64,000 nucleotides of DNA from Vogesella urethralis (GTDB lineage: Bacteria > Pseudomonadota > Gammaproteobacteria > Burkholderiales > Chromobacteriaceae): contig NZ_VMDW02000098.1 of assembly GCF_007644045.2 (NCBI RefSeq), positions 62,001 to 126,000 of the forward strand. Reading direction: 5' to 3'. The position numbers and the translations under genes were made by a program. Positions 1,199 to 58,838 of this stretch are shown here, one piece after another. A model generated the notes under the pieces. The model made no database searches and was not told the origin of the DNA. It worked only from the letters and a program-made list of their open reading frames with translations. Numbering within the stretch: the stretch's first letter is position 1; the number at the start of each line of letters is the position of its first letter.

Positions 1199-3037
1199 AT
1201 GAGTCTGCATCCCGTACTGCACGCTGTTACCCAGCGCATCATCGAACGCAGCCGCGACACCCGCGCGGCCTACCTGGCGACGGCCCGCGCTGCGATGCGC
1301 CAGGGCAAGGTCGAGCGTTCCCAGCTGTCCTGTACCAACCTGGCCCACGCGTTCGCCGCCATGCCGGACGGGATCAAGATCCACCTGAAAGAGGCGGCCC
1401 GCCCCAACCTGGCCATCGTGTCCGCTTACAACGACATGTTGTCGGCGCACCAGCCGCTGGAAACCTTCCCCGCCATCATCAAGGCCGAGGCCTTGAAAGT
1501 GGGCGCTACCGCCCAGTTTGCCGGCGGCGTGCCGGCGATGTGCGACGGCGTGACCCAGGGCTTCGAGGGCATGGAGCTCAGTTTGTTCTCGCGCGACGTG
1601 ATTGCCATGAGCACCGCCATCGCGCTGAGCCACCAGATGTTCGACGCCGCGCTGTACCTGGGCGTGTGCGACAAGATCGTGCCCGGCCTGTTGATCGGCG
1701 CGCTGGCTTTCGGCCACCTGCCGGCGGTGTTTGTACCGGCCGGCCCGATGACCACCGGCATCGCCAACGACGAAAAAGCCAAGGTGCGCCAGCTGTACGC
1801 CGAAGGCAAGGTTGGCCGCGACGCGCTGCTGGAGTCCGAAATGGCCTCCTATCACGGCCCGGGCACCTGCACCTTCTACGGCACCGCCAACAGTAACCAG
1901 ATGCTGATGGAAGTGATGGGCCTGCACCTGCCGGGCGCCGCCTTCGTCAACCCGAATACCCCGCTGCGCGACGCGCTGACGCGCCGCGCCGCCCGTGTGG
2001 CTGCCGAGATCTCGGCCCAGGGCAGCCGCTTTACCCCGATTTGCGAGGTGATCGACGAGAAAGCCATCGTCAACGGCATCGTCGGCCTGCTGGCTACCGG
2101 CGGCTCCACCAACCACACCCTGCATATCAATGCCATCGCCCGCGCGGCCGGCATCAATGTGAACTGGGACGATTTCGACGAGCTGTCCGCCGTGGTGCCG
2201 CTGATTGTGCGCGCCTACCCCAACGGCAAGGCCGACGTGAACCACTTCCATGCCGCTGGCGGCATGGGCTTTGTGATTCGCGAACTGCTGGATGCGGGCC
2301 TGCTGCACGACGACGTCACCACCATCATGGGCCACGGCCTGCGTGCGCACAGCCAGGAAGCCTGGCTGCAAGACGACGAGGCCGCATTCCGCGACGCGCC
2401 GGCGGTGTCCGGCGACGACGGCGTGCTGCGCCCGGCAGCCAACCCGTTCTCCGCCGACGGCGGCCTGAAGGTGCTGACCGGCAATATCGGCCGCGCCGTG
2501 ATCAAGGTGTCGGCAGTGAAGACCGAGCACCGCGTGGTGGAAGCACCGGCGGTGGTATTCCACGACCAGAACGAACTGCTGGCGGCGTTCAAGCGTGGCG
2601 AGCTGGAAAAAGACTTTGTGGCGGTCATCCGCTTCCAGGGCCCGCGCGCCAACGGCATGCCGGAACTGCACAAGCTGACGCCGCCGCTGGGCGTGCTGCA
2701 GGAGCGCGGCTTCAAGGTGGCACTGGTGACCGATGGCCGCATGTCCGGCGCGTCCGGCAAGGTGCCGGCCGCCATCCACGTGTCGCCGGAAGCGCTGCTG
2801 GGCGGTGACATCGGCAAAGTACGCAATGGCGACCTGGTACGCCTGGACGCCAACACCGGCGAGCTGAGCATCCTGGTGGACGCGGCCGAATGGGCAGCGC
2901 GCGAGCACGTACAGATTGACCTCAGCGCCAACCAGCACGGCGTCGGCCGCGACCTGTTCGCCGGCTTCCGCCAACTGGCCACCGCCGCCGAAGACGGCGC
3001 GATGAGCTTTGCCCACCCGCTGTGGGCGGGCCGCTAA
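1199..3037 (+). CDS. edd: phosphogluconate dehydratase
   Basis: Dehydrates 6-phosphogluconate to 2-keto-3-deoxy-6-phosphogluconate, the first committed Entner-Doudoroff step; an iron-sulfur IlvD/Edd family enzyme. The 612-residue product matches the usual length of about 605. Visible family blocks are CDGVTQG near residue 115 and [10 protein letters not shown] near 155 (cluster cysteines), GSTNHT near 300, and NGMPELHKL followed by [11 protein letters not shown] in the C-terminal half. The frame is open further upstream, but ATG 1199 ([14 protein letters not shown]) gives the family start and leaves the HexR-like site outside the gene. eda follows after 94 bp, probably as one transcript. Confidence 0.97.
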
Positions 3038-3095
3038 GCGCCTGCGCCCGCTGCCGTGTGGCGGTGGGCTATAAAAACTGCATCGATCATTGACC

Positions 3096-3115
3096 GGGTT
3101 GGCCGCGGCCAACCC
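3096..3115. repeat. 20-bp perfect palindrome made of two overlapping uptake-like motifs
   Basis: GGGTTGGCCGCGGCCAACCC lies between edd and eda. It is two head-to-head copies of GGTTGGCCGC sharing the central GC. It would fold as RNA into a tight hairpin between the two cistrons and belongs to the dispersed motif family of this window. Confidence 0.85.
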
Positions 3116-3131
3116 CTGCAAAGGACACACA

Positions 3132-3758: not shown

Positions 3759-3912
3759 GGCCCCAGGGCCGTGCCATCCGGTTGCCGGTGCCCTCGCGGG
3801 CCTGTGGCGGCAACGGGGCGGGAACACGCGGCCGCAAGGTGAGGGGTACCCCGTGATCGCTGCCGGTCGTTGCGACGCGACCGGCGGGCTGTAGTTTGTT
3901 GCTTTCTTGTAG

Positions 3913-3947: not shown

Positions 3948-4085
3948 ATCCTGAATATATGCGGTGAAAATATGTACTGGTAACGGTAGAATTGCAGCCA
4001 TTTGTTTAATTCTTCATTTTCTGATGTCTGAATTGCCGCGCATTCATGGCGATGGCAGGGCATTAGGTGGCGACGGGGCAATTTT

Positions 4086-5147
4086 ATGACGATTCTGGTA
4101 ACCGGCGGTGCCGGCTTCATTGGTGGCAACTTCGTACTGGACTGGTTGGCCGCACACGATGAAACCGTGGTCAACCTGGACAAGCTGACCTACGCGGGTA
4201 ATCTGCAAACGCTGTCCAGCCTGCAGCACGACCCGCGCCACGTGTTCGTACACGGCGACATCGGCGACCGTGAGCAGGTAGCCGGCTTGCTGGCGCAGTA
4301 CCAGCCGCGCGCGGTGCTGAACTTTGCCGCCGAAAGCCATGTGGACCGCTCCATTCACGGCCCGGGGGACTTCATTCATACCAACGTGCTGGGCACCTTC
4401 AATTTGCTGGAAGCCGTGCGCGGCTACTGGGACGCGCTGCCGGCAGAGGCCAAGGCTGCGTTCCGCTTCCTGCATGTGTCTACCGACGAAGTGTACGGCA
4501 CGCTGTCGCCGCAAGACCCGCCGTTTGCCGAAGACAACCGTTACGAGCCCAACAGCCCGTACTCGGCCAGCAAGGCCGCCAGTGACCATCTGGTGCGCGC
4601 CTGGCACCATACCTACGGCCTGCCGGTGCTCACCACCAATTGCAGCAACAACTACGGGCCTTACCACTTCCCCGAGAAGCTGATTCCGCTGGTCATCCTC
4701 AATGCGCTGGCCGGCAAGCCGCTGCCGATTTACGGCGATGGCCAGCAGGTGCGCGACTGGTTGTACGTGAAGGACCACTGCAGCGCCATCCGCCGCGTGC
4801 TGGACGCCGGGCAGTTGGGCGAGACCTACAACGTCGGTGGCTGGAACGAAAAAGCCAACCTCGACGTGGTGCACACCATCTGCACGCTGCTGGACGAGCT
4901 GCGCCCGCGCGCCGACGGCCAGTCTTACGCCAGCCAGATCACCTTCGTGCAAGATCGCCCCGGTCACGACCGCCGCTACGCCATCGACGCGCGCAAACTG
5001 GAACGCGAGCTGGGCTGGAAGCCGGCCGAAACCTTCGATAGCGGCATTCGCAAGACGGTGCAGTGGTACCTCGACAATCAGGACTGGGTGGCCGGCGTCA
5101 CCAGCGGCAGCTACCGTGACTGGCTGCAGCAGCAGTACGGTGCCTGA
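4086..5147 (+). CDS. rfbB: dTDP-glucose 4,6-dehydratase
   Basis: Second step of dTDP-L-rhamnose synthesis: converts dTDP-glucose to dTDP-4-keto-6-deoxyglucose. It is a 353-residue extended SDR enzyme. The NAD-binding GGAGFIG is at residues 7-13, the catalytic STDEVYG is near 135, and YSASKAASD (Tyr/Lys pair) near 158. [15 protein letters not shown] is the typical substrate-binding stretch. It is first of the rfbBDAC cluster and separated by 2 bp from rfbD. Rhamnose made here normally goes to LPS O-antigen or exopolysaccharide; no glycosyltransferases are in the window. Confidence 0.97.
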
Positions 5148-5149
5148 GC

Positions 5150-6999: not shown

Positions 7000-7548
7000 A
7001 TGCATATCATTGATACAGTTATTGCCGACGTCAAAATCATCGAGCCCACCGTATTTGGTGACGAGCGCGGTTTTTTTTACGAGAGCTTCAGCCAGCGCCT
7101 GTTCGACGAGGCGGTTGGGTACCACGTGGCCTTCGTCCAGGACAACCACAGTCGGTCGGTACGCGGCGTGCTGCGCGGCCTGCATTACCAGCTGCCGCCG
7201 TTTGCCCAGGGCAAGCTGGTACGCTGTACCGTGGGCGAGGTGTTCGACGTTGTCGTGGACATCCGCCGCAGTTCACCCACTTTCGGTCAGTGGGGCGGGC
7301 ACGTGCTGTCTGCGGCCAACAAGCGTCAGTTGTGGATTCCGGCAGGTTTCGCCCACGGCTTTGTCACCCTCAGCGAACACGCCGAGTTCCTGTACAAGAC
7401 CACGCAGTACTACGCGCCCAGCCACGACCGCGGCGTGTTGTGGAACGACCCGGCCATCGGCATTAGCTGGCCGGACGCCGGCACGCTGACGTTGTCGCCC
7501 AAAGACGCGCAACAGCCGCTGCTCGCCGCCGCCGAGCTGTTCGACTAG
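7000..7548 (+). CDS. rfbC: dTDP-4-dehydrorhamnose 3,5-epimerase
   Basis: Epimerises C3 and C5 of the 4-keto sugar before RfbD reduces it. This cupin-fold enzyme has 182 residues. Seen: FYESFSQRLFD near 25, the catalytic-histidine stretch VRGVLRGLHYQ near 53-63, and the end of the barrel with IPAGFAHGFVTLSE. It lies 84 bp after rfbA across an AT-rich spacer, unlike the tight rfbB-D-A joints, so it may have joined the cluster separately. Confidence 0.96.
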   Translation: MHIIDTVIADVKIIEPTVFGDERGFFYESFSQRLFDEAVGYHVAFVQDNHSRSVRGVLRGLHYQLPPFAQGKLVRCTVGEVFDVVVDIRRSSPTFGQWGGHVLSAANKRQLWIPAGFAHGFVTLSEHAEFLYKTTQYYAPSHDRGVLWNDPAIGISWPDAGTLTLSPKDAQQPLLAAAELFD

Positions 7549-7611: not shown

Positions 7612-8292
7612 ATGAAGCTGCTTGTAGCCGAAGACGACACCGTCCTGGCCGATGCGCTGCTGACGCGGCTGGATCGGCTGGGTTTTGCCACCACCCACGC
7701 ACCGGATGGCCTGCAGGCGCAGCAACTGCTGCTGGCGGAGGCCTTCGACGCTGTCATTCTCGATATCGGCCTGCCCGGCCTGGACGGCTTGCAGGTGCTG
7801 CGCAACGTGCGCGTGCACAAGCCGGCGCTGCCCATCCTGATCCTCACCGCGCTGGACAGCATGGAAGACCGCGTTGCCGGCCTGGATGCCGGCGCCGACG
7901 ACTACCTGGTCAAACCGTTCGAATTTCCCGAGCTGGAAGCGCGCATCCGCGCCTTGTTGCGTCGCCACCGCGTGGCCGAGGCGGTGCGGGATGAGCTGCA
8001 CTTTGCCGGCCTGCGCCTGGACCGTGCCGGCCAGCGCGTGTGGGCCGGCGAGCAGGCGCTGGACCTGTCGGCGCGCGAGCTGCAGCTGATGGACATCCTG
8101 ATGAGCAACGGCGAACGCGTGGTGACCAAGGAGCAGATCGCCGGCGAGTTGGCCGCAGACGGCGAAGAAGTGGGCGTCAACGCGGTGGAAGTCTACGTGC
8201 ATCGCCTGCGCAAGAAGCTGGACGGCAGCGGCGTCGGCATCCGTGCCGTGCGCGGCCTCGGCTATTTGCTGGCCGCTACCGACGATCACTAA
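7612..8292 (+). CDS. OmpR-family response regulator (TctD/QseB-like)
   Basis: Cytosolic DNA-binding receiver of a two-component system. It has 226 residues: a receiver domain (about 1-115) with acidic pocket EDD, phosphoacceptor Asp51 in VILDIGLPG and Lys in LVKPFEFPEL; then a winged helix (about 125-220) with VNAVEVYVHRLRKKL and IRAVRGLGYLL. The kinase gene follows 41 bp later. Downstream lies the sugar importer gtsABCD, whose upstream region has phased repeats suited to an OmpR-type regulator, so control of sugar uptake is the likely role (inference). Confidence 0.9.
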   Translation: MKLLVAEDDTVLADALLTRLDRLGFATTHAPDGLQAQQLLLAEAFDAVILDIGLPGLDGLQVLRNVRVHKPALPILILTALDSMEDRVAGLDAGADDYLVKPFEFPELEARIRALLRRHRVAEAVRDELHFAGLRLDRAGQRVWAGEQALDLSARELQLMDILMSNGERVVTKEQIAGELAADGEEVGVNAVEVYVHRLRKKLDGSGVGIRAVRGLGYLLAATDDH

Positions 8293-11494: not shown

Positions 11495-12397
11495 ATGTCT
11501 GCCTCCGCATCGCAAGGCCGTCTCAGTGCACTGGCCGACCGCTGGCTGCCCAAGCTGGTGTTGTCGCCCACGTTGCTGGCGAGCCTGGTGTTCGTCTACG
11601 GCTTTATCGCCTTTACCGGCTGGCTATCCTTTACCGAATCCCGCCTGATGCCCCGCTTCGAGTGGGCCGGGCCGGTGCAATACCAAGCGCTGTTCGAAAA
11701 CGAGCGCTGGTGGACCGCTGCGGCCAACCTTGGCATCTTCGGCGGCCTGTTCATCCTGATCTGCCTGCTGGTAGGCCTGTTGATGGCCATCTTGCTGGAC
11801 CAGAAAATCCGCGCCGAAGGCGCACTGCGCACCATCTACCTGTACCCGATGGCGCTGTCCTTCGTGGTGACCGGTACCGCCTGGAAGTGGATGCTGAACC
11901 CGGACATGGGCCTGCAAAAGGTGATGAACGACCTGGGTTTTGCCAACTTCACTTTCGACTGGCTGGTGAACCCCGACATGGCCATCTACACCGTGGTGAT
12001 TGCCGGTGTGTGGCAGAGCTCGGGCTTCGTGATGGCGCTGTTCCTGGCCGGCCTGCGCGGCATTGACGACTCGATCATCAAGGCCGCCCAGGTGGATGGC
12101 GCCAGCCTGCCCACCATCTACCGCCGCATCCTGATCCCCAGCCTGCGCCCGGTGTTCTTCAGCGTGCTGCTGATCCTGTCGCACATCGCCATCAAGAGCT
12201 TCGACCTGGTGATGGCGCTGACCGGTGGTGGCCCGGGTACCTCGTCCGACGTGCCGGCCATCTTCATGTACCAGTTTGCCTTTACCCGTGGCCAGCTGGG
12301 CCAGGGTGCCGCCTCGGCTATGATGATGCTGTTCACCATCGTCGCAGTATTGGTCCCGCTGATGTATCTGGAAACAAGGAGTGCCAAACGTGTTTAA
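11495..12397 (+). CDS. gtsB: sugar ABC transporter permease, MalF type
   Basis: Inner-membrane subunit forming half of the sugar channel. About 300 residues, six predicted membrane helices (first near 22-44), and the permease-ATPase coupling loop (EAA-like) AAQVDGASLPTIYRRILIPSL near residue 190-210. ATG 11495 follows AAGGA; the longer open frame upstream crosses the hairpins and is unlikely to be translated. Its last codons overlap the start of gtsC. Confidence 0.93.
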   Translation: MSASASQGRLSALADRWLPKLVLSPTLLASLVFVYGFIAFTGWLSFTESRLMPRFEWAGPVQYQALFENERWWTAAANLGIFGGLFILICLLVGLLMAILLDQKIRAEGALRTIYLYPMALSFVVTGTAWKWMLNPDMGLQKVMNDLGFANFTFDWLVNPDMAIYTVVIAGVWQSSGFVMALFLAGLRGIDDSIIKAAQVDGASLPTIYRRILIPSLRPVFFSVLLILSHIAIKSFDLVMALTGGGPGTSSDVPAIFMYQFAFTRGQLGQGAASAMMMLFTIVAVLVPLMYLETRSAKRV

Positions 12398-14361: not shown

Positions 14362-15257
14362 TGACGGCGCTGGGCAAGCAAGGGTTGGCCGCATCGGGGC
14401 CGCTGCTGTCACCGGTGGCGGCCGGCGTCTGGCGTCTGGACGAATGGGGATTTGACGACGCCGCGCTGGCCGCCTGGGTGGAGCACGCCCTGGCGCTGGG
14501 CATCACCACCTTCGACCACGCCGACCTGTACGGCGGCTTCACCTGTGAAGCGCTGTTCGGTCGCTGGCTGAAGGCCCACCCGTCGCGCCGCGATCAGCTG
14601 CAACTGGTCAGCAAGTGCGGCATCAAGCCGGCCATGGCCGAGCGCGGCTGGCAGGTGAAGCACTACGACACCTCGGCGGCGCACATCACCGCCAGTGTCG
14701 AGGCCTCGCTGCGCCACCTGGGCACCGACTACCTCGACCTGCTGCTGATCCACCGCCCCGACCCGCTACTGGAGGCGGATGACGTTGCCGACACCTTCCG
14801 CCGCCTGTTCGAGGCCGGCAAGGTGCGCCACTTCGGCGTGTCCAATTTCACGCCGTCGCAGTATGCGCTGCTGGCCAGCCGTTTCCCGCTGGTGACCAAC
14901 CAGGTGGAAGCCTCGCTGCTGCACCTGGACCCGCTGTTCGACGGCACCTTTGATCAGTGCCAGCAGCTGCGGGTGCGCCCGATGCTGTGGTCGCCGCTGG
15001 CCGGTGGCCGCCTGCTGGATACCGCGGCCAACCCCGTGTTGCACGCTACCCTGCAGCAGGTGGCCGGCGCGCTGGACGTCAGCGTGGCCACGGTGGCGTT
15101 GGCCTGGCTGCTGCAGCACCCGTGCAAGCCGCTGCCCATCATCGGCTCGCGCCGTCTGGCTTCGCTGGACGAGGCGGCGGCGGCCTGCCGGCTGGAGCTT
15201 GATCGCCAGCAGTGGTTTGCGCTGTTGCAGGTGGCACTTGGCCGCGAGGTGGCCTGA
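14361..15257 (+). CDS. aldo/keto reductase, YdhF-like
   Basis: Probable NADPH-dependent oxidoreductase of the AKR barrel family, 298 residues. Seen: DHADLYGG (catalytic Asp/Tyr) near 52, SKCGI with the catalytic Lys, LLLIHRPDP with the His region, [10 protein letters not shown] and the cofactor-binding PIIGSRR near the end. ATG 14361 overlaps the gtsD stop (TAATG), so it is co-transcribed with the sugar importer and may act on an imported sugar or its product (inference); the substrate is unknown. Confidence 0.88.
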
Positions 15258-16715: not shown

Positions 16716-16735
16716 TGCGGCCAACGTTGGCCGCA
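16716..16735. repeat. inverted pair of the uptake-like motif
   Basis: TGCGGCCAACGTTGGCCGCA is a perfect 20-bp palindrome of two TTGGCCGCA cores placed just past the end of the convergent GFA gene. It fits the family's habit of sitting as inverted pairs at gene ends. Confidence 0.8.
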
Positions 16736-17821: not shown

Positions 17822-19048
17822 TTACTTCAGCCGGCGCGGGTTGCTGTTGCCCCATACCGTGTACAGGTCGGCCAGCAGCGCGCCGTTGATGTCTTCCATT
17901 TCGGTCTGGGTGATTTCGGCGTTGCCCTGCTTGCCGAACAGTACCACTTCGTCACCCGCTTTCACGCCGGGAATGTCGGTGACGTCCACCATGGTGGTGT
18001 TCATCGACACCTTGCCCACCACCGGCGCGCGCTGGCCGTTGACCAGCACATAGCCCTTGTTGGTGAACACGCGGCGGTAGCCGTCGGAATAGCCCAGCGG
18101 CAGGTTGGCCAGCAGGCTGTCGCGCTTGAGGGTGAAGGTGCGGTCGTAACCGACGGTATTGCCGGCCGGGTAGGCGTTGACGGCGGCGACGCGGGTTTTG
18201 AACGCCATCACGCGGCGGTATTCGGTGTAGCTGGGAAGGGTGTCACCGTATAGCAGGCCGCCGGGGCGCACCATGTCGAGGTGGCTTTCCGGCACTTCCA
18301 GCGTGGCGAAGGAGTTGGCCGCGTGCAGCGTCAGCTTGCTGCGGTCGAGGCCGGCATTGTCGATCAGCCACTGGCTTTGCTGCTTGAATGCGGCCAACCC
18401 TTTGCGTACGTCGTCGGCGTCTTCCACCGCAAAGTGGGTCATGATGCCCACCAGCTTCAGGCCGGGCTGTTTCACCAGCGCCAACGCGTCCTGACGGCCT
18501 TGTTCGGTGGCCATTTCCAGCCCGTTGCGGCTCATGCCCGACGAGTTCAGGCCCAGGTGGATGCGCAGCGTCCGGCCTTGCTGTTGCGCCAGCTGACCGG
18601 CGGCGCGGGCGTGCGCCAGGTTGCCTACCAGCTCTTCCATGTTGTAGCGCAGTGCGCCGCGGATTTCGGCCAGCGTGGCGGTGCGTACGCGCATCAGGCG
18701 GCCCTTGAAGCCTTTCTCGCGCACCACGCGGGCTTCTTCGTTGCTGGCCACCGCAATGCACGGCACGCCGCTGGCGATGACCGACGGCACCAGCAGCGCG
18801 ATGCCGTGGCCGTAGGCGTCGGCCTTCATCACGGCGCAGATTTGCGATTTGCCGGCCAGGCGGGTTTGCAGCTGACGGATATTGTGCTCGAAGGCGGCTT
18901 TGTCGATTTCCACCCAGGCATTGCCGGCGGGGGCGGCGGCTTCGGTGCGGGCCGGGGCTACGGCATCCAGCAACGGGGCGGACAGGGCGGGCTGGGCGCC
19001 CAGTAGGGTGGCCAGGCTCAGGGCCAGCAGGCTACGACGGAATGGCAT
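17822..19048 (-). CDS. bsr: periplasmic broad-specificity amino-acid racemase (alanine racemase fold)
   Basis: PLP-dependent racemase of 408 residues. A signal peptide (MPFRRSLLALSLATLLGAQP, cleaved near LSA) points to the periplasm, unlike housekeeping Alr. The PLP lysine is in AVMKADAYGHG near 74, the second catalytic Tyr in NTVGYDRTF near 300, and VGKVSMNTTMVDVTDI follows. This matches the BsrV/Alr2 group that makes non-canonical D-amino acids for wall remodelling. The exact amino-acid range cannot be read from the sequence. Confidence 0.88.
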   Translation of the reverse strand: MPFRRSLLALSLATLLGAQPALSAPLLDAVAPARTEAAAPAGNAWVEIDKAAFEHNIRQLQTRLAGKSQICAVMKADAYGHGIALLVPSVIASGVPCIAVASNEEARVVREKGFKGRLMRVRTATLAEIRGALRYNMEELVGNLAHARAAGQLAQQQGRTLRIHLGLNSSGMSRNGLEMATEQGRQDALALVKQPGLKLVGIMTHFAVEDADDVRKGLAAFKQQSQWLIDNAGLDRSKLTLHAANSFATLEVPESHLDMVRPGGLLYGDTLPSYTEYRRVMAFKTRVAAVNAYPAGNTVGYDRTFTLKRDSLLANLPLGYSDGYRRVFTNKGYVLVNGQRAPVVGKVSMNTTMVDVTDIPGVKAGDEVVLFGKQGNAEITQTEMEDINGALLADLYTVWGNSNPRRLK

Positions 19049-20685: not shown

Positions 20686-22572
20686 TTAAGCCGGTTGCTC
20701 GGCGCTGTCCGCCGGCGGCGTCTTGCGCGAAATCACCGCCACGAAGCGGCATTCCAGCTCCAGCATCAGCTCGTCGATGCGGATGATCTGCAGCTGGATG
20801 CGGTCGCCGTTTTCCAGCTCCGGCAGGCCGGCAATGCGCAGGCGCAGCGGCACGCCGTCGATGCGCACCAGGTCTTCCTTGATGAAGGTGGCGGTCGGCT
20901 CGGTCACGCCCTCCTGGCTGAACCAGCGCAGGCACCAGAAGTGCTCCATCTTGTCCTGGAAGCCCAGGTAGGCGCTGTAGGCGGCGTCGAAGTCGCGCAG
21001 CAGCGCAAACAGCATGGCGTCGCCTTGCGCGTACTGCGGGTCTTCGCCACGGATCATCGCCACCAGCTGGCGCTGGTTCACAAAGTCGGACGCACGGCGC
21101 AGCGGCGAGGTGCTCCACGCGTACTGTGCTACGCCCAGGCCGATATGCGGCTCGGGGCGGGTGGTCATGCGTACCTTGCCCATGCTTTGCGCACGGTACA
21201 TGGCCGGGATGTCGGCTTCGGCCAGCATGCGGCCCCACTCGCTGTTGGCCAGGATCATCAGCTCGGAAACCAGCTTGTCCATCGGCGAACCGCGCTTGCG
21301 GATGGTGATGCGCACCTTGCCGTCTTCCACGGCAAAGTTGTAGTCCACCTGCGGCGGGCGGTTCGGGTCTGGCGTCTTGCCGCGGAAGGCTTCGCGGGCG
21401 TTGGCAAACTGCCACAGCCAGACCAGCTCGCGCTTGAACGCGTAGTCGGGGCCGAAGCCGGGTGCGGCCAACGTGTCTTCGTTGAACACCTGCTCCAGCT
21501 GATCGTGGCGCAGGTTGGCCGCAATGTGCACGCGCTCGACGCGGTTTTCGAAATCCACCAGCTCGAAGGCCGGGCTCACTTCCACGTACAGGCTCAGCGC
21601 CGGGCAAGCCTGGCCTTCCTGCAGCGTGAACTGTGCCACCACGTCGTCGGGCAGCATGGTGATCTTGTCGCCGGGGAAGTACACGGTGGACAGGCGCTGG
21701 TGCACGATCTTTTCCAGATCGCTACCCGGCGCAATGCCCAGCGTGGGCGCGGCAATGTGGATGCCGACACGGATATTGCCGTTGTCCAGCCACTGTACCG
21801 ACAGCGCATCGTCGATTTCGGTGGTGGCGGCGTCGTCGATGGAGAACGCCTGTACCTCGGCCAGCGGCAGCGCCTCCGGCAGCGTGGCGGGGGCATAGTT
21901 ACCAAAACCCAGCCCTTTGGGGAAGTGCTCCATCTGGAAGCCGGCCATCAGGTAGGCCGGTACCGACGGAATGCCACCCACTTTGTCGGCCAGGCGCAGC
22001 GGCGGCAGGCTGGTGGCGCGGCTGGCCTGGTCGAAGGCCTTGTATTCCAGCGTGTTCTTGTCCGGGCGGTACAGGATGGCCATCAGGTGGCTGCGGATGG
22101 CGTCCGGCAGCGTGCCGGCGGCCAGCTCGGCGGCCCAGGCGTCGATCTGTTCCTGTTCGCGCTTTTTGCGCTCGATACCGGCCAGCGCGGCTTTCAGCGT
22201 TTCTTCCGGTGCGGCCTTGAAGCGGCCCTTGGCCTTCTTGTAGAAGTACATCGGCGCGGCGTACAGGCGCAGCAGGATGGCGGCGTTTTCCAGCGCATTG
22301 GGGGCGTGGCCGAAGTAGTCGGCGGCCAGGGTGTCGAAACCGAATTCGTCGTCGCCGCAGCATTCCCACAGGAAGTCGACGTCGATATCGGCAGCAATCG
22401 CTTCGGCAGCCGGCAGAAAGTCCTGCAGCGCGCTGCTGAACTCCAGGAACACGTTGGCCGCTTTCAGCTTGGTGCGCTTGCCGTGCTGGGTGTCGATTTG
22501 CAGACTGGCGTCAGCGCGGGACACCACGCTGCCGACCTTGAAGCTGCCGCTTTCTTCGTAAAAGACGTTCAT
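20686..22572 (-). CDS. RNase II-family 3'-5' exoribonuclease (RNB domain)
   Basis: Degrades RNA from the 3' end. About 628 residues: an N-terminal region, then the RNB catalytic core from about 240 with the acidic motif IDDAATTEIDDALSVQWLDN, later TSPLRRASDFVNQRQLVAMI near 480, and a short C-terminal S1-like barrel (RIQLQIIRIDELML). It is shorter than RNase R (about 800) and resembles the short RNB enzymes common in betaproteobacteria. ATG 22572 was chosen because the frame upstream runs into the promoter region. Confidence 0.9.
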   Translation of the reverse strand: MNVFYEESGSFKVGSVVSRADASLQIDTQHGKRTKLKAANVFLEFSSALQDFLPAAEAIAADIDVDFLWECCGDDEFGFDTLAADYFGHAPNALENAAILLRLYAAPMYFYKKAKGRFKAAPEETLKAALAGIERKKREQEQIDAWAAELAAGTLPDAIRSHLMAILYRPDKNTLEYKAFDQASRATSLPPLRLADKVGGIPSVPAYLMAGFQMEHFPKGLGFGNYAPATLPEALPLAEVQAFSIDDAATTEIDDALSVQWLDNGNIRVGIHIAAPTLGIAPGSDLEKIVHQRLSTVYFPGDKITMLPDDVVAQFTLQEGQACPALSLYVEVSPAFELVDFENRVERVHIAANLRHDQLEQVFNEDTLAAPGFGPDYAFKRELVWLWQFANAREAFRGKTPDPNRPPQVDYNFAVEDGKVRITIRKRGSPMDKLVSELMILANSEWGRMLAEADIPAMYRAQSMGKVRMTTRPEPHIGLGVAQYAWSTSPLRRASDFVNQRQLVAMIRGEDPQYAQGDAMLFALLRDFDAAYSAYLGFQDKMEHFWCLRWFSQEGVTEPTATFIKEDLVRIDGVPLRLRIAGLPELENGDRIQLQIIRIDELMLELECRFVAVISRKTPPADSAEQPA

Positions 22573-36700: not shown

Positions 36701-36800
36701 GGAGGGCTCCTGGCAGGTTGGCCGCATCATGCCGTAGTGGGGTGCTGTCCGCGAGGGGCGTGAGCGGCTGCGGCCAACGCTTGCGCGTTGCGGGCGGGTG

Positions 36801-37888: not shown

Positions 37889-37921
37889 AAGGTTGGCCGC
37901 AGGTGGCGTGCGGCCAACCTT
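37889..37921 (-). terminator. terminator built from an inverted pair of the uptake-like motif
   Basis: AAGGTTGGCCGCA (37889-37901) and its exact complement (37909-37921) form a 13-bp stem with a 7-nt loop. On the minus strand the stem is followed by five T (37886-37890), so it is a rho-independent terminator for the M28 peptidase gene that ends at 37928. Both arms are exact 11-mers of the dispersed motif, the same use that Neisseria makes of paired uptake sequences. Confidence 0.88.
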
Positions 37922-42817: not shown

Positions 42818-42904
42818 TATTGCACCCTGTAAAAAATCATTTGCCGATAGCGTGGATTATCCCGCAATCAAAGCCCAATACAATGCGGCCAACCTTTTTA
42901 CTGA

Positions 42905-44054: not shown

Positions 44055-44079
44055 TGCGGCCAACCTGGGGTTGGCCGCA
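44055..44079. repeat. inverted pair of the full 11-mer motif between frmA and fghA
   Basis: TGCGGCCAACC (44055-44065), TGG, then GGTTGGCCGCA (44069-44079): an 11-bp stem with a 3-nt loop in the 49-bp gap between frmA and fghA. No T tract, so it would act as an intercistronic hairpin, not a clean terminator. Confidence 0.88.
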
Positions 44080-45054: not shown

Positions 45055-46308
45055 ATGCAGCTGGTTGCCATCGGACTCAATCACCACACCGCGCCCCTCA
45101 CCATTCGTGAGCGGCTGGCCTTTCCGGCAGAAACGCTGCCGGCCGCGCTGGGCCAGCTGGTCGAGTCGCGGGCGGCGCGCGAGGCCACCATTGTGTCCAC
45201 CTGTAACCGCACCGAGCTGTACTGTGCCACCCAGCACCCGGAAGAAGCGCTGCGCTGGCTGGCGGCCTACCACGGCCTGACGCTGGACGAGGTGCGCCCC
45301 TACCTGTACCTGCTGGACGCGCCGGAAGCGGCCCGCCACGCCTTCCGCGTGGCGTCGGGGCTGGACTCCATGGTGCTGGGCGAAACGCAGATCCTGGGCC
45401 AGATCAAGGACGCGGTGCGCACCGCCGAACGCGCCGGCACGCTGGGCAGCCTGCTCAACGGCCTGTTCCAGAAAACCTTCTCGGTGGCCAAGGATGTGCG
45501 CAGCCAGACCGCCGTCGGTGCCAGTTCGGTGTCGATGGCGGCCGCCGGGGTGAAGCTGGCCGAGCAGATTTTTGCCAGCGTCGGCGGCCTGAACGTGCTG
45601 TTCATCGGTGCCGGCGAGATGATCGAGCTGGTGGCCACCCACTTTGCCGCCCGCCAGCCGGCGCGCATTACCGTGGCCAACCGCACGCTGGAGCGCGGCC
45701 AGCGCCTGGCGGCCGAGTTTGGCGGCCAGGCTATCACGCTGTCCGAGCTGCCCGATCAGCTGCAACACTACGACGTGGTGGTCAGCTCCACCGCCAGCCA
45801 GCTGCCCATCATCGGCAAGGGTATGGTGGAGCGCGCCATCAAGGCACGCCGCCATCGCCCGATGTTCATGCTGGACTTGGCCGTGCCGCGCGATATCGAG
45901 GCCGAGGTTGGCCGCATGGACGACGTCTACCTGTACACGGTGGACGACATCGCCGGCATCGTCGAGGTAGGCCAGCAGGCGCGCAACCAGGCGGCGGAAG
46001 AAGCCGAGCTGATCATCAGCCACCGCGTGGCCGAATTTACCGACTGGCTGAAACGCCGCGAGTCGGTACCGCTGATCCGCGCGCTGCGCGACGAGAGCGA
46101 ACGTATCCGCCGCCACGCACTGGAAGCCGCGCACAAGCAGCTGGCCCGTGGCGACGACCCCGAAAAAGTGCTGGAGGCGCTGTCCGTCCAGCTCACCAAC
46201 AAACTGATGCACCCGCCGACGCAGGCGCTGTCTAGCGGCAGCGGCGCGGCGCACGACGCGCAGGTCGAACTGATCGCGCGTTTGTATCGCTTACACCCGG
46301 AGCAGTAA
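45055..46308 (+). CDS. hemA: glutamyl-tRNA reductase
   Basis: First step of C5 tetrapyrrole synthesis: reduces glutamyl-tRNA to glutamate-1-semialdehyde with NADPH. 417 residues with nucleophile Cys in [12 protein letters not shown] near 49, [16 protein letters not shown] near 102, the NADPH fold [15 protein letters not shown] near 187 and the C-terminal dimerisation domain. Its stop overlaps the prfA start (TAATG), the conserved hemA-prfA pairing. Confidence 0.97.
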
Positions 46309-47384: not shown

Positions 47385-47412
47385 GCCGCCACCTGCGGCC
47401 AACGATGCCCAG

Positions 47413-49243: not shown

Positions 49244-49963
49244 TCAAGTGCGACGAAAAATGGCCCTGGCCAGCACCCAGGCATCGACCTGTCTGGCCCC
49301 TGCTTTTAACAGGGTTTTGGCCAGTGCGTGCAGGGTAGCGCCGGTACTCGCCACGTCGTCCACAATGGCGATATGAAGCCCGTCACAGCGGTGTTTCACG
49401 CCAAAGGCATCGCGGACATTACGCAGCCTTTCGCGCCGGTTGCGCCGGGTTTGGCGGCCCGTGTTGCGTTTGCGCCAACACAGCGTGTTGTCGAAACGGA
49501 CGCGCATTGTAGCAGCCAACGACCGGGCCAGGGCGTCGGGCAGGTTGAAGCCGCGTTCTCGCAGGCGTTCGGCCGCAAGCGGCACCGGCACGATCAGGTC
49601 GGGCACGGCAGCGTCTGGCGCGCGCAGGCGGGCTTGCGGCATCAGTGCGGCCAACGTGCCCTGCAGGCTGGCGTCGGGCAGGTATTTGCAGCGGGTAATC
49701 AGCGCGTCGAGCGGATAATCGTAGTCGTAGGCGCTGTACAGCTGCCGGAACGCCGGCCTGAGCTTGCGGCAATCCAGGCAGTCTGCCTGCGCGCTGGCTG
49801 CCGGGCACTGGCAGCGTGGGCAACGGTGGCCGGCACGCCATGGCAGTGTGCAGCAGCAGGCGCTGCACAGGCCGTGCCGGGCGGGGCGTTGGCCGCATAA
49901 ACGGCAGTGCTGCTCAAATAATGGGCAGTTGTCAATTGCGGCTAGTATCAGGTTTGACAGCAT
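49244..49963 (-). CDS. comF: ComF-family phosphoribosyltransferase-like protein
   Basis: 239 residues: an N-terminal zinc-ribbon (CRLCGQ..CSACC and CPRCQCP..CLDC, about 20-66) and a phosphoribosyltransferase fold with [18 protein letters not shown] near 125 and [17 protein letters not shown] near 200. ComF is needed for single-strand DNA passage into the cytosol during natural transformation in several bacteria. This is relevant to the uptake-like motif spread over the window, although the rest of the machinery is not visible here. ATG 49963; it is divergent from bioB by 59 bp. Confidence 0.93.
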
Positions 49964-50022
49964 CGACCGCCTCCCGCAAGATGCGTGGGTGTTTTTACTC
50001 AGATGACAAACGGAAGCCCCGC

Positions 50023-51006
50023 ATGAACCAGGCCACCATCGCATTCCACCGCCCCGCCTCCCCGCACGCCGAATCCGGCCTGTGGACCCAGGAAGAAGTC
50101 GAGGCCCTGTACGACCTGCCTTTCATGGAGCTGGTCTTCCGTGCTGCCGAAGTGCATCGCCAGCACTTCGACCCCAGCCGCGTGCAGCTGTCCACGCTGG
50201 TATCGATCAAGACCGGCGGCTGTCCGGAGGACTGCGGCTACTGCCCGCAGTCCGTGCACCACGACACCCCGGTAGAAAACCAGCCGATGATGACCGTGGA
50301 CGAGGTGGTGGAAGCCGCCCGCCTGGCCAAGGCCAACGGTGCCGGCCGCTTCTGCATGGGCGCCGCCTGGCGCGGCCCGAAGGATGCCGACCTCGAAAAA
50401 ACGCTGGACATGGTGCAGCAGGTGAAGGCCTTGGGCCTGCAAACCTGTGCCACCTTCGGCTTGCTGAAAGACGGCCAGGCCGAAAAGCTGAAAGACGCCG
50501 GCCTGGACTTCTACAACCACAACCTGGATACCGCGCCGGACAAGTACGCCGACATCATCCAGACCCGCGAGTACGAAGACCGCCTCGACACGCTGGGCAA
50601 GGTGCGTGGCGCCGGGCTGTCGGTGTGCTGTGGCGGCATTATCGGCCTCAACGAAACCCGCGAGCAGCGCGCCGGCCTGATCCTGCAGCTGGCCAACCTG
50701 GACCCGCAGCCGGAATCGGTGCCGGTCAATAACCTGGTCAAGGTCAGCGGCACGCCGCTGGACGGCGCCGACGCGCTGGACTGGACCGAGTTCGTGCGCA
50801 CCATCGCCGTGGCCCGCCTGACCATGCCGCACAGCTACGTGCGCCTGTCGGCCGGCCGCCGCGAGATGCCGGAAGCGATGCAGGCGCTGTGCTTCCTGGC
50901 GGGTGCCAACTCCATCTTCTACGGCGACAAGCTGCTGACCACCGGCAACCCGGACGTGGACGCCGACCGCGCGCTGATGGACAAACTGGGCCTGCAACCA
51001 CTGTAA
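50023..51006 (+). CDS. bioB: biotin synthase
   Basis: Radical-SAM enzyme that inserts sulfur into dethiobiotin in the last step of biotin synthesis. 327 residues; the CxxxCxxC cluster is Cys67, Cys71, Cys74 in [13 protein letters not shown], followed by [36 protein letters not shown], and the second-cluster Arg in [15 protein letters not shown] 50023 has GGAAGC upstream. It is followed by a terminator-like hairpin, so bioF needs readthrough or its own start. Confidence 0.97.
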
Positions 51007-51032
51007 GCCGGTTTCAGCGTCTGGTTAAATGC

Positions 51033-51065: not shown

Positions 51066-51090
51066 ATGATTCTGCAGAAAGGTTGGCCGC

Positions 51091-52242
51091 ATGCGCCCAG
51101 ACCAGCTCGATGCCGCCCTGGCCGCCCTGGCCGATGATCACCGCTTGCGCCAGCGCCACGCGCTGCATACCCCGCAAGGCCCGCGCGTGCGTATCGATGG
51201 CCGCGATTACCTGGCATTTGCCAGCAACGATTACCTTGGCCTGGCCAATCACCCGGCGCTGAAAACCGCCATGCAGCAGGCTATCGCCGACTGGGGCGTC
51301 GGCGCCGGCGCCTCCGAACTGGTGGCCGGCCACTTCGCCATCCAGCAGCAGGCCGAAGCGGCGCTGGCCGACTGGGTAGGCTGTGAGGCGGCGCTGGTGT
51401 TCGGCTCCGGCTATGCGGCCAACCTGGGGGTGATTACCAGCCTGGTAGGGCGGGGCGATGCGGTGTTTGCCGACAAGCTCAACCACGCGTCGCTGAACGA
51501 CGCCTGCGTGCTGTCGCGTGCCGATTTCCAGCGCTTTCGCCACAGCGACCTCGACCATCTGGCCACACTGTTGCAAAAAACCCCGGCCCGTACGCGGCTG
51601 ATCGCCGTCGATGCGGTGTACAGCATGGACGGCGACGAGGCGCCGTTGCGCGAGCTGCTGGCGCTGGCCGAACGCTACGATGCCTGGCTGTATCTGGACG
51701 ATGCGCACGGTTTCGGGCTGCTGGGCGAAGGGCGCGGCGCGCTGGCGGAATATGCCTTGCATCACCCGCGGGTGGTGTACATGGCCACGCTGGGCAAGGC
51801 TGCCGGGGTAGCGGGGGCCTTTGTGGCGGGCAGCCGTGCTTTGGTGCAGTGGCTGGTGAATAGTGCGCGGACGTATATTTTCACCACCGCGCATCCACCG
51901 GCGCAGGCAGCTGCCGTGATGGCCAGCCTGCAGCTGATGCGTGACGAGCCCTGGCGGCGGGAACGGATACAGCAGCATATTGTTACATTAGCGGCATTTA
52001 TGCAGGATAAATCTTTGCACTTGCGCTCTTCCCGTTCGCCAATTCAAGCGATTATTATTGGCAGTAATGAGGCAGCTGTAAGCTATTCCATGGCTTTGCG
52101 CGAGCAAGGCGTATGGATACCGGCGATACGCCCTCCAACGGTTCCGGCAGGCACGGCTAGATTGCGCGTGTCCCTGACGGCAGGTCATACCGAAGACGAC
52201 ATCAAGGCGCTGTTGGCAGCACTGGATCAGGCAATAGGCTAA
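51091..52242 (+). CDS. bioF: 8-amino-7-oxononanoate synthase
   Basis: PLP enzyme joining pimeloyl-ACP and alanine, the first ring-forming biotin step. 383 residues with FASNDYLGLANHPALK near 48, GSGYAANLGVI near 107, DAVYSMDGDEAPL near 172, YLDDAHGFGLLG near 200 and the PLP lysine in MATLGKAAGVAGAF near 235. A full motif copy (51081-51091) ends with the A of the ATG. The last 130 codons, from about 51850, are more AT-rich and use rare codons (ATA, TTA, AGC), unlike the front part. Confidence 0.96.
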   Translation: MRPDQLDAALAALADDHRLRQRHALHTPQGPRVRIDGRDYLAFASNDYLGLANHPALKTAMQQAIADWGVGAGASELVAGHFAIQQQAEAALADWVGCEAALVFGSGYAANLGVITSLVGRGDAVFADKLNHASLNDACVLSRADFQRFRHSDLDHLATLLQKTPARTRLIAVDAVYSMDGDEAPLRELLALAERYDAWLYLDDAHGFGLLGEGRGALAEYALHHPRVVYMATLGKAAGVAGAFVAGSRALVQWLVNSARTYIFTTAHPPAQAAAVMASLQLMRDEPWRRERIQQHIVTLAAFMQDKSLHLRSSRSPIQAIIIGSNEAAVSYSMALREQGVWIPAIRPPTVPAGTARLRVSLTAGHTEDDIKALLAALDQAIG

Positions 52243-55277: not shown

Positions 55278-56042
55278 ATGAGCCTTTTCATTGAAACCCA
55301 CGGGCGCGGCCCGGACGTGGTGCTGCTGCACGGCTGGGGCCTGCACGGCGGCGTGTTCGACCGCGTGGCGGCCAACCTGGCTAACGATTTCTGCGTGCAT
55401 CGGGTCGACCTGCCCGGCCACGGCGCCAGTGCGGCCGCCGCCGTTTTCCACCCCGACCCCATCGCCGCCGAGTTGGCCGTGCGCTTTCCGCTGCCGGTGC
55501 ACGTGGTGGGCTGGTCGCTGGGCGGCCTGATCGCGCAGCACTGGGCGGCCCGCCACCCGGCGCTGGTGAAGAGCCTGGCGTTGATCGCCACCAGCCCGCG
55601 CTTTGTGCGCGACGACAGTTGGCCGCACGCGCAGCAGCGCAGCGCCATCGAAAGCGTGGGCGCCAGCCTGGATACCGCCTTCGAGCTGACGTTGGAGCGC
55701 TTCCTGGCCTTGCAGATGCTGGGTGCGCCCGCTGCACGCCAGACGCTGGCCGACCTCAAGGCGCAGCTGTTCTCGCACGGCCGGCCGCAAGGGCTGCTGC
55801 CGGCGCTGGAGTGCCTGCTGGCGGCCGACGCGCGGGAACTCGCGGCCAGCATTCACTGTCCAGTCGGGCTGTTCTTCGGTGCCCGCGACGCCATCACCCC
55901 GATAGGGGCTGGCCGCTGGCTGGCCGACGCGCTGCCGGACGCCACCTTGTACGAATTTGCCCACGCCTCGCATGCGCCGTTTTTGTCGCACGAGGCAGAA
56001 TTCATCGCGCAGCTGCGCCACCACCTGGAACAACACGCATGA
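55278..56042 (+). CDS. bioH: pimeloyl-ACP methyl ester carboxylesterase
   Basis: Removes the methyl group from pimeloyl-ACP methyl ester, finishing the pimelate chain for biotin. 254-residue alpha/beta hydrolase: oxyanion region VVLLHGWGLHGGVFD near 15, nucleophile Ser in VVGWSLGGLIAQ near 80, Asp in FFGARDAITP near 205 and His in HASHAPFLSH near 234. ATG 55278 was chosen over the frame's earlier start for its family N-terminus. The stop overlaps the bioC start (ATGA). Confidence 0.95.
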   Translation: MSLFIETHGRGPDVVLLHGWGLHGGVFDRVAANLANDFCVHRVDLPGHGASAAAAVFHPDPIAAELAVRFPLPVHVVGWSLGGLIAQHWAARHPALVKSLALIATSPRFVRDDSWPHAQQRSAIESVGASLDTAFELTLERFLALQMLGAPAARQTLADLKAQLFSHGRPQGLLPALECLLAADARELAASIHCPVGLFFGARDAITPIGAGRWLADALPDATLYEFAHASHAPFLSHEAEFIAQLRHHLEQHA

Positions 56043-56944: not shown

Positions 56945-56956
56945 GATAGAGAGTTT

Positions 56957-57844
56957 ATGTCGTTCCTTCGTCGCCTTGCTGCCGTCGGCGTACTGGCCGG
57001 CCTGGCCGCGTGCACCACGCCGTCTTCCGCCCCGGTGGTGCAGCCGCCGCTGCCCAAACCCAAGATTGCCTTTGCCCTCGGTGGCGGTGCCGCCAAAGGC
57101 TTTGCCCACGTCGGCGTCATCCGCGTGCTGGAACAAAACGGCATCAAGGCCGACATCGTGACCGGCACCAGCGCCGGCAGCATCGTGGGGGCCATCTACG
57201 CCAGCGGCGTGGACGGCGAAGCGCTGCGCTACCGCGCCATGCGCATCAACGAAGACGACCTGAAAGACTTCACCTTCTCCAGCAGTGGTTTCCTGAAGGG
57301 CGAGAAGCTGGCCGCGCTGGTCAACCAACAAGTGGACGGCAAGCGCATCGAACAGCTGCCGCGCAAATTCGGCGCGGTGGTCACCGACCTCGACAGCGGC
57401 GCCCGCGTGGTGCTGAAAAGCGGCGACACCGGCACCGCTGCCCGCGCCTCGGCTGCCATCCCCAATGTGTTCCAGCCGGTCAGCCTGAACGGCCGTCGCT
57501 ACGTGGACGGTGGCCTGGTGAGCCCGGTGCCGGTGATGGCCGCTCGCGAAATGGGCGCCGACATCGTCATTGCGGTAGACATCTCGGCCAAGCCCACCGG
57601 CAAGGCCAGCAGCGGCTTTCTGAGCCTGCTGGACCGCAGCCTGAACATCATGAACCTCACCGCGCTGAACCTGGAGCTGAAGCAGGCCGACGTGGTGCTG
57701 CGCCCGGCGGTACTGCACATCGGTGCCGCCGACTTTGACGAACGCGCCAGCGCCATTGCCGAAGGCGAGAAAGTGGCCCGCGCCATGCTGCCGCAGGTCA
57801 AAGCCGCCATCGATAACTGGGTAAAACGCAAGCGTGCCGCCTAA
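56957..57844 (+). CDS. patatin-like phospholipase lipoprotein, copy 1
   Basis: 295 residues. Signal peptide with lipobox GLAAC (Cys19), then a patatin (RssA-like) domain: oxyanion loop FALGGGAAKGFAHVG near 38, nucleophile Ser in VTGTSAGSIVGA near 72 and the Asp of the dyad in YVDGGLVSPVPV near 185. Probably a lipid-anchored serine hydrolase in the cell envelope. It is 12 bp after bioC and overlaps its paralogue by 11 bp; the two share most of the catalytic domain, so they arose by tandem duplication. Confidence 0.9.
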   Translation: MSFLRRLAAVGVLAGLAACTTPSSAPVVQPPLPKPKIAFALGGGAAKGFAHVGVIRVLEQNGIKADIVTGTSAGSIVGAIYASGVDGEALRYRAMRINEDDLKDFTFSSSGFLKGEKLAALVNQQVDGKRIEQLPRKFGAVVTDLDSGARVVLKSGDTGTAARASAAIPNVFQPVSLNGRRYVDGGLVSPVPVMAAREMGADIVIAVDISAKPTGKASSGFLSLLDRSLNIMNLTALNLELKQADVVLRPAVLHIGAADFDERASAIAEGEKVARAMLPQVKAAIDNWVKRKRAA

Positions 57845-58838
57845 GCTGCTGCCGCGCAGCCTGCGCGCCCTCGCCCCGCTGCTGTTGGCCGCGTGTACCA
57901 GCGTCACGCCGCCAGCCCAGCCACCTGCGGTAACGCTGCCGGCCACCCCGGCCAGCGCGCCGATGGCCGAGGCGCCGGTGCCGCAGACACCGCCTGTCAA
58001 ACCTGCTGCGGCCAACCCTGCACCGGCCAAGCCCGCTGCGCCGAAAGTGCGGCGCCAGCCGCGTATTGCACTGGCGCTGGGCGGTGGTGCCGCCAAGGGC
58101 TTTGCCCACGTGGGGGTGATCCGTGTGCTGGAGCAGCAGGGCATCGTGCCCGACATCATCACCGGCACCAGCGCCGGCAGCGTGGTGGGCGCCATCTACG
58201 CCAGCGGCATCAGCGCCGACAAGCTGCGCCGCCGCGCGCTGGCGCTGAACGAAGACGAACTGAAAGACTTCACCCTGTCCGGTGGCGGTTTTCTGAAAGG
58301 CGATAAGCTGGCGGCGATGGTGAACCGCGAGGTTGGCCGCAAGCGCATCGAACAGCTGCCGCGCACCTTCGCCGCGGTGGCTACCGACTTTGACAGCGGC
58401 GCCCGCGTGGTCTTCCGCAGCGGCGACACCGGCACCGCCGTGCGCGCCTCGGCCGCCATTCCCAATGTGTTCCAGCCGGTCACCATCCGTGGCCGCCGCT
58501 ACGTGGACGGTGGCCTGGTCAGCCCGGTGCCGGTCAGCGCCGCGCGCGAGCTGGGCGCCGACATCGTCATCGCCGTCGATATCACCGCCAAGCCGGCGCA
58601 GCGCAAAAGCGGCGTGCTGGGCACCTTCGACCAGAGCCTGTCCATCATGACCCAGGCCGCGCTGGCTAACGAACTGAAAGGCGCCGACGTGATCCTGCGC
58701 CCGCAGGTGCTGGGCCTGGGCGCCGCCGACTTCGACCAGCGCCGCCGCGCCATCCGCGAAGGCGAGCGCGTCGGCAAACAGGGCATCCCCGCCATCCGCC
58801 GCATCATCGCCGCCTGGCAGCAGCGGCAGCAGCGTTGA
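57834..58838 (+). CDS. patatin-like phospholipase lipoprotein, copy 2
   Basis: 334 residues with a GTG start overlapping copy 1. Lipobox LLAAC near Cys21, then a longer Pro/Ala-rich linker (about 22-75) before the same catalytic domain (LALGGGAAKGFAHVG, ITGTSAGSVVGA, YVDGGLVSPVPV). The linker may let it reach further from the membrane. Its last codons (IIAAWQQRQQR) form one copy of the 26-bp direct repeat that brackets the bacteriocin island, so the true ancestral C-terminus may differ by a few residues. Confidence 0.9.
   Translation: MPPKLLPRSLRALAPLLLAACTSVTPPAQPPAVTLPATPASAPMAEAPVPQTPPVKPAAANPAPAKPAAPKVRRQPRIALALGGGAAKGFAHVGVIRVLEQQGIVPDIITGTSAGSVVGAIYASGISADKLRRRALALNEDELKDFTLSGGGFLKGDKLAAMVNREVGRKRIEQLPRTFAAVATDFDSGARVVFRSGDTGTAVRASAAIPNVFQPVTIRGRRYVDGGLVSPVPVSAARELGADIVIAVDITAKPAQRKSGVLGTFDQSLSIMTQAALANELKGADVILRPQVLGLGAADFDQRRRAIREGERVGKQGIPAIRRIIAAWQQRQQR
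58804..58829. repeat. 26-bp direct repeat, left copy (inside patatin copy 2 end)
   Basis: Begins TCATCGCCGCCTGGCAGCAG and is identical over 26 bp to 63545-63570 in the same orientation. The two copies bracket the AT-rich bacteriocin cluster. Confidence 0.9.

Follow-up and report, generated by a model that had tools for sequence, protein, structure and literature searches.

Does the short word that recurs throughout a stretch of the Vogesella urethralis genome mark DNA for uptake by this bacterium? In this stretch, referred to here as the window and covering 64 kb, the 11-mer GGTTGGCCGCA, the core 10-mer GTTGGCCGCA and the 12-mer AGGTTGGCCGCA are versions of one word, which the original prediction had read as a DNA uptake sequence (DUS). 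Our comparison of sequences points to the same answer: AGGTTGGCCGCA, with its core GTTGGCCGCA, is very probably the DUS of Vogesella, which would be read by ComP and has CCG in its core instead of CTG. The word is the top outlier, survives a codon-aware null model, is balanced between the strands and is poor in islands, the latter being confounded with GC content; sister genera carry dialects of it, and a relative of ComP is encoded.

Abundance and strand balance of the word

The window contains 19 exact copies of GGTTGGCCGCA, 10 forward and 9 reverse, where 0.16 are expected, and 100 dinucleotide-preserving shuffles of the window never yielded more than one copy per shuffle. The core GTTGGCCGCA occurs 31 times and GGTTGGCCGC 32 times. 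In a fourth-order Markov ranking of the window, GGTTGGCCGCA is the top 11-mer (19 versus 0.32) and GTTGGCCGCA the top 10-mer (31 versus 1.16). The number and orientation of the exact copies given by the original prediction, its expectation of fewer than one by chance and its estimate of about 63% GC (0.634 measured) were all reproduced. Two details needed correction: 12 more 10-mers were counted instead of 11, and position 1810, taken as the start of the series, holds a copy with one mismatch, GGTTGGCCGCG, and exact copies begin at 4144.

The same word dominates well beyond the window. Its own genome, G000 (4.03 Mb in 157 contigs), was sampled over 461 kb including the window, and the single-contig Vogesella genome G060 was sampled as 20 stretches of 20 kb (400 kb). 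Under a fifth-order Markov model, GTTGGCCGCA is the top 10-mer of both the G000 sample (212 versus 16) and the G060 sample (282 versus 12). The ranking of top words covered 10- and 11-mers in the window and 10- to 13-mers in the two samples, and the motif proved to be the top outlier that had been anticipated in all three. Genome-wide, G000 holds 1,169 copies of GGTTGGCCGCA, 584 forward and 585 reverse, and four of the reversed word. The 11-mer thus reaches 0.29 copies per kb genome-wide, and the 10-mer reaches 0.46 per kb in the G000 sample and 0.71 per kb in that of G060. In both samples the bases preceding GTTGGCCGCA favour A, A and G (0.55, 0.62 and 0.53, respectively, in G060), with a signal that fades further out. 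The word is therefore best written as AGGTTGGCCGCA, the highest-ranking 12-mer in both samples.

Word searches placed the forward exact copies in the window at 4144-4154, 14383-14393, 21513-21523, 33818-33828, 36716-36726, 37891-37901, 44069-44079, 45906-45916, 51081-51091 and 58331-58341, and the reverse ones at 11719-11729, 18389-18399, 26467-26477, 34796-34806, 37909-37919, 42884-42894, 44055-44065, 51414-51424 and 58007-58017. Core 10-mers in which the first base of the 11-mer differs lie at 8147-8157, 26943-26953, 38671-38681, 49887-49897 and 55617-55627 on the forward strand and at 7311-7321, 21463-21473, 36769-36779, 47394-47404 and 49646-49656 on the reverse strand. Two further cores stand back to back at 16716-16735.

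Frequent short words kept within a genus also include Chi and the FtsK-orienting polar sequences (KOPS), which show strong polarity along the replichore. A replication or segregation word of this polar kind, which would orient FtsK or protect DNA ends and lie mostly on one strand per replichore, would share with the Vogesella word its high frequency, its dispersal and its conservation in the genus. The G-rich strand carries 160 of the 282 copies (57%) in the G060 sample (P 0.03), with replichore strands judged by GC skew alone. This share is, however, far from strong polarity; both orientations are present in all 18 site-bearing stretches of G060, and the genome-wide count of 584 versus 585 in G000 agrees with the expectation that density would not follow replication orientation as it does for KOPS or Chi. 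Such a word would also leave unexplained the intergenic density, the inverted pairs and the two word-free islands described below, and we regard this explanation as very improbable.

Placement of the copies in and between genes

Genes were called with a purpose-written simple caller, which returned 344 genes occupying 80% of the G060 sample and 454 genes occupying 89% of the G000 sample. If the word reflected codon or protein bias, it would stem from a peptide that recurs often, for example Leu-Ala-Ala or Ala-Ala-Asn, and two Ala-rich frames do hold 125 of the 160 genic copies in G060 and 82 of the 139 in G000. Shuffling synonymous codons within genes (200 shuffles per sample) nearly abolishes the word, however, leaving a mean of 4.9 copies (maximum 11) against 160 in G060 and a mean of 8.0 (maximum 15) against 139 in G000, and intergenic DNA is denser in the word than genes are. 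Codon or peptide bias is refuted as its cause by these shuffles, and we give it practically no credence. Genic copies use all six frames, in line with the earlier claim that copies in several reading frames are not explained by protein sequence, and they run with or against the gene strand at 85:75 in G060 and 73:66 in G000; one of those in the window (45906-45916) lies within a hemA-like gene at 45055-46308. Outside called genes the density is 1.49 per kb in G060 and 1.44 per kb in G000, versus 0.50 and 0.34 inside them, a three- to fourfold difference.

Neighbouring copies tend to face each other. In G060, all 26 neighbours at most 50 bases apart are inverted, compared with an expectation of about eight at up to 40 bases, whatever their orientation. 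G000 has 15 inverted and six direct neighbours, five of the direct ones lying in a single tandem array. At G000:C28:74195-74265, six tandem 11-mer copies with a 12-base period stand beside one inverted copy. All 39 inverted pairs at most 30 bases apart, counted over both samples, are intergenic by these gene calls. Three of them are in the window, with cores at 16716, 37892 and 44055, as the claim of inverted pairs at gene ends had it. The first is the back-to-back pair, which forms a perfect 20-base palindrome; in the others, also recovered by a pair search, a left arm at 37891-37901 is joined by a right arm at 37909-37919, and one at 44055-44065 by one at 44069-44079.

This arrangement would suit transcription terminators or hairpins resembling repetitive extragenic palindromic (REP) elements, in which the word would mainly be half of an inverted repeat acting at RNA ends. 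The consistent inversion of close neighbours in G060 and the confinement of the 39 pairs to DNA between called genes favour this explanation, and runs of T were seen after some of the pairs. However, only a minority of the copies belongs to such pairs (52 of 282 in G060; 30 of 212 in G000). The majority stand alone, and genes contain 160 and 139 copies, respectively, in either orientation. As a general account of the word, we see only a very slim chance for it. Neisseria uptake sequences double as terminators, and the inverted pairs of Vogesella can likewise be both uptake sequence and terminator.

In bins of 2 kb, the density of copies varies with base composition: it is 0.53-1.05 per kb where GC exceeds 64%, 0.13-0.15 per kb at 50-56% and nil in the eight bins below 50%. 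Two of the 20 G060 stretches are free of the word (L114 and L118, with five proteins of each scanned); they contain a bacteriophage exclusion (BREX) island with BrxL, PglZ, BrxC and a methylase, and a TnsD/TniQ Tn7-like element, also with a CoiA-like nuclease domain. These two stretches agree with the expectation that islands lack the motif, with the reservation that low counts in AT-rich DNA are to be expected of any GC-rich word. In the window, word and protein searches delimited a word-free end at 58844-64000, AT-rich from about 60000 and carrying ATP-binding cassette (ABC) transporter and HlyD-like genes, of which the part with the ABC transporter and an HlyD-like gene (58844-63227) is perhaps a type I export island. 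Of the claim that this AT-rich island is without the word, it stands that nothing follows position 58341 even when one mismatch is allowed; 5.7 kb alone is weak evidence, and the wider samples agree.

Sites are also kept between species. Eight of 11 sites aligned with V. oryzae are identical, compared with 558 of 2,593 10-mers taken every 7 bases from the same alignment (binomial P 0.0004), and identity was found for one of two sites in V. fluminis and three of five in V. alkaliphila.

Dialects in sister genera

The family set comprised 61 genomes, 13 from Vogesella (g1) and 48 from other genera (g2 to g10). The HemA protein encoded in the window is 92% identical to that of V. oryzae and 88% to those of V. 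fluminis and V. alkaliphila; outside the genus, identity is 79 and 80% with two Chromobacterium and 76% with one Paludibacterium. Identical word counts link G051 with V. fluminis and G049 with V. alkaliphila, and shared places of the word link G012 with C. alticapitis (eight places) and G013 with C. amazonense (one place). Genus g1 is accordingly Vogesella, and g3 is most likely Chromobacterium. The exact 11-mer is present in 1,141-1,510 copies in all 13 Vogesella genomes versus 1-22 copies in all 48 others.

In 20-kb stretches from sister genera, the top words differ from that of Vogesella but keep the core GTTGGCCG, and whole-genome counts bear out the proposal that related genera carry dialects. 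An AA dialect, GTTGGCCGAA, was counted 183-2,168 times in eight genomes of five genera (1,368 in G010 of g2; 579 and 2,168 in g6; 1,245 in g7; 1,851 in g9; 1,104, 183 and 893 in g10) and at most 78 times in the other 53 genomes. An AG dialect, GTTGGCCGAG, has 1,940 and 1,590 copies in the two genomes of g5 and at most 165 in the other 59. Whole-genome counts of GTTGGCCGAA and GTTGGCCGAG never exceed 92 copies in the nine other g2 genomes, the 19 of g3, the four of g4 and the six of g8, and in 61 to 86 kb from each of g2 (without G010), g3, g4 and g8 no comparably strong word was seen, apart from one artefact. This was TTTACCCTGATCGA in g4, rejected as a dialect: its translation is the pilin signature GFTLIE, and the g4 loci had been chosen around pilin genes.

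Counts within a dialect are not uniform. G036 has 579 copies versus 2,168 in its genus mate, and G047 (84% complete) has 183 versus 893 and 1,104, while in G040 and G043 of g8 the AA and AG words are both about four- to fivefold over the control. These low or relic counts may represent dialect decay.

The pattern GTTGGCCG[AC][AG], which covers four words, was counted against the reversed word as control. Three named Vogesella genomes gave 2,824 (control 67), 2,164 (52) and 2,251 (51), and the counts were 94 (96) in P. yongneupense, 117 (88) in C. amazonense, 186 (76) in C. alticapitis, 63 (44) and 96 (28) in two Neisseria and 96 (39) in a metagenome-assembled genome (MAG) titled Neisseriaceae bacterium. 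A sample of the order contained 399 genomes, 386 of them outside the family. In those 386, the pattern never exceeded 223 copies (the maximum, with a control of 98, in 5.7 Mb), whereas the eight dialect carriers drawn had 1,304 to 3,107. A few of the non-family genomes showed a two- to fivefold excess over the control (82 versus 16 in G123; 139 versus 31 in G288).

As a positive control, the top-word search was applied to six loci labelled Neisseria. It recovered GCCGTCTGAA, the known DUS, in four of them and none in the 7.5-kb L009, which indicates that the search works. In L010, from the MAG Neisseria sp. S32M_Sa_16, the top word was GCCGTCTGCA, with nine copies in 11 kb; it is the DUS 10-mer with C at +9, the same change as in Vogesella, and lies outside the eight dialects in the available text of Frye et al.

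Relation to known uptake sequences and a ComP relative

The original prediction had called the word not related to the DUS of Neisseria, which is too strong in view of in-register matches of 8/12 and 9/12. Seven of the eight described dialects were compared, wadDUS, which has an inserted base, being left out, and chance was estimated from random 12-mers of the window against the seven dialects on both strands at seven offsets. In the DUS 12-mer register, AGGTTGGCCGCA matches mucDUS and simDUS at 8/12 (chance 8.3%), and the AA dialect, written AGGTTGGCCGAA, matches its nearest dialects at 9/12 (chance 1.2%). The Vogesella word and the DUS of Neisseriaceae have in common a length of about 12 bases, a high copy number, balance between the strands, dialects confined to genera, inverted pairs, scarcity in islands and the ComP family, and the A/C change at +9 that parts Vogesella from the AA dialect is the one that parts king3DUS from kingDUS. 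They differ at positions +6 to +8, which are CCG in all three dialects described here and not CTG, with G at +5; position +10, an A in DUS of the Neisseriaceae type, is A in the CA and AA dialects and G in the AG dialect of g5. The available text of two studies describes the CTG core at +6 to +8 as common to all described DUS dialects and strictly required (PMC3630211, PMC12061091). The likeness to DUS may be taken as modest evidence of a common origin, helped by the kinship of ComP and by the +9 change.

The uptake signal sequence (USS) of Pasteurellaceae follows the same principle, with many copies and uptake specificity, but is a different word, and its hosts are gammaproteobacteria. Its core is AAGTGCGGT with flanking AT tracts; the flanks of the Vogesella word in the G060 and G000 samples show no AT tract, only positions -2 and -1 being A-rich. 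The receptor in Pasteurellaceae is predicted to be another minor pilin, as far as the available text of that work goes (PMC12616744).

A non-palindromic word of this length could also be the site of a genome-wide DNA-binding protein, such as a nucleoid protein, or the mark of a methylase, in either case unrelated to uptake. The word is enriched 13- to 24-fold over the fifth-order model, while restriction sites are usually avoided, not enriched. Moreover, the depletion in islands, the dialects within the family and the in-register likeness to DUS fit uptake better, leaving a binding or methylation site quite improbable.

A predicted receptor is encoded in the same genomes. The profile PF16732 (ComP_DUS) matched in all 61 family genomes, at one to four places in each; it therefore cannot separate genera with the word from those without, and was rejected as a marker. 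Among 174 collected pilin-like frames, the members of one group have a domain in common, in which W-P-x-L-P and two cysteines do not vary (17 aligned), and a profile of this ComP-like group separates the genera better. Searched against solved structures, this profile ranks ComP first (2nba 1.5e-21, 2m3k 2.6e-19, 5hz7). When L172, a single Vogesella protein, is the query, the leading matches are to the N-terminal helices of other pilins; 2nba comes fifth, but over residues 40-135, which are the domain. The profile was searched in 30 genomes, 12 of which had been used in building it; five of the 13 Vogesella were among these 12 and eight were independent. Full-length matches were found in all 13 Vogesella (E 1e-54 to 4e-35), in all ten carriers of other dialects and in the three g3 genomes searched, while matches were weak (2e-25, 4e-26) in the two g8 genomes searched, and the two g4 genomes searched gave paralogue-like partial matches only. 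The best match of the same profile in a Neisseria genome (6e-35) is ComP. Judged by these similarities, a relative of ComP, which is the uptake-sequence receptor of Neisseria, is encoded in each of the 13 Vogesella genomes.

At the L172 locus, the ComP gene lies beside genes for a GspH-like pilin, 3-dehydroquinate (DHQ) synthase (aroB), shikimate kinase (aroK) and a secretin, and at least five other Vogesella loci (L176, L178, L180, L182 and L188) match its aroB-aroK-secretin and GspH-like pilin neighbours. Among the loci listed from g2, g3, g5 and g6, the ComP gene clusters with other minor pilins. In a tree of 23 ComP proteins, which leaves out the seven of 30 loci in which the pattern used found no open frame (G046, G045, G055, G040, G043, G033 and G030), 12 Vogesella proteins form one side with full support, and the tree follows dialects and genera alike. 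ComEC exceeded the cut-off in 57 of the 61 family genomes, including 11 of 13 Vogesella, and is in pieces in G019 and G045; DprA did so in 13 of 13 Vogesella. The window itself was said to contain comF. A comF/gntX-like competence gene, which is not specific to uptake sequences, does lie at 49247-50044 on the reverse strand, but its matches (TIGR00201 comF, E 1e-29; GntX NF008616, E 8e-41) are below curated cut-offs, and it is only probably comF.

With genes for the ComP relative, a secretin, ComEC and DprA present, we infer a mechanism in which a ComP-type minor pilin of a type IV pilus would bind the word on extracellular double-stranded DNA, and word-bearing DNA would preferentially be pulled through the outer-membrane secretin. 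ComEC would then import a single strand, which DprA would protect and which would be recombined. Since word-bearing DNA would be taken up more often, copies would accumulate and persist in the shared genome at places where they cause little damage, that is, between genes, in inverted pairs and in tolerant codon frames, and recently arrived islands would be without copies.

Several observations weigh against an uptake sequence read by ComP. The preference for the G-rich strand in G060 (57%) counts slightly, the depletion in islands is confounded with GC, the 8/12 likeness of the Vogesella word to DUS is reached by chance in 8.3% of cases, and the core is CCG where the Neisseria rule requires CTG. 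Chromobacterium (three of three genomes searched) and two g2 genomes have a ComP relative and no such word, so that ComP alone does not imply a dialect, and the agreement of the ComP tree with dialects is not independent evidence because the tree also follows genera. Two Vogesella genomes, G058 and G059, have weak ComEC matches only. Control genomes matched too, with ComEC in 12 of 14 and DprA in 10 of 14, and comF, ComEC and DprA are found in many bacteria without an uptake sequence.

Vogesella, a genus akin to Neisseria, is placed in Chromobacteriaceae by the NCBI taxonomy. In the available text of a 2025 paper, Neisseriaceae and Pasteurellaceae are the only families known to use uptake sequences. 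The main study of Neisseriaceae dialects, within its available text, reports Chromobacterium, Laribacter, Lutiella and Pseudogulbenkiania as having no obvious uptake sequence and C. violaceum as having no ComP that BLAST could find, and dates the system after that split (PMC3630211). Our literature searches found no paper with any of six of the words as whole words (longer strings and supplements being outside their scope) and none pairing 'uptake sequence' with Vogesella; by title, the matches for Chromobacteriaceae concern Neisseria or Kingella. Titles retrieved for natural transformation and Vogesella were unrelated, and wider searches returned no title reporting such a sequence here.

We lean slightly towards the view that ComP-read specificity is older and wider than Neisseriaceae and that, in the family of Vogesella, a second, CCG-core group (GTTGGCCG followed by CA, AA or AG) extends over six genera plus a single species of another, and is lacking from Chromobacterium, among others. 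On this view, the CTG core would not be universal, and receptor and word would have changed together. A third family that has dialects of its own along with a ComP relative would provide natural receptor-word pairs with differing cores, which would make the reading of the word by ComP directly testable. The origin of the ComP-read system would move back, or repeated invention would be shown, and Vogesella and its sisters would be marked as probably transformable.

A further word, GTCGACCGCA, was observed in Azonexus sp. R2A61 (L015, L261-L274), with 609 and 647 copies by strand in a genome of 3.7 Mb (control 12). It is the top 10-mer in 301 kb of Azonexus (98 versus 8.3) and forms nine overlapping palindromic pairs; 251 copies were counted in a MAG (genome of L052) and 76 in A. 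hydrophilus (genome of L049). Unlike a KOPS-like polar word, it is balanced, at 609/647 genome-wide, 5/6 at the locus and 41/46 in 280 kb. It may be a further uptake word or else a site with a palindrome around GTCGAC, and with 8/10 bases alike it might extend the CCG-core group to another family. The ComP-profile matches in Azonexus (1e-21, 3e-23) are weaker than that in Neisseria and somewhat above those in two other genomes titled Rhodocyclaceae.

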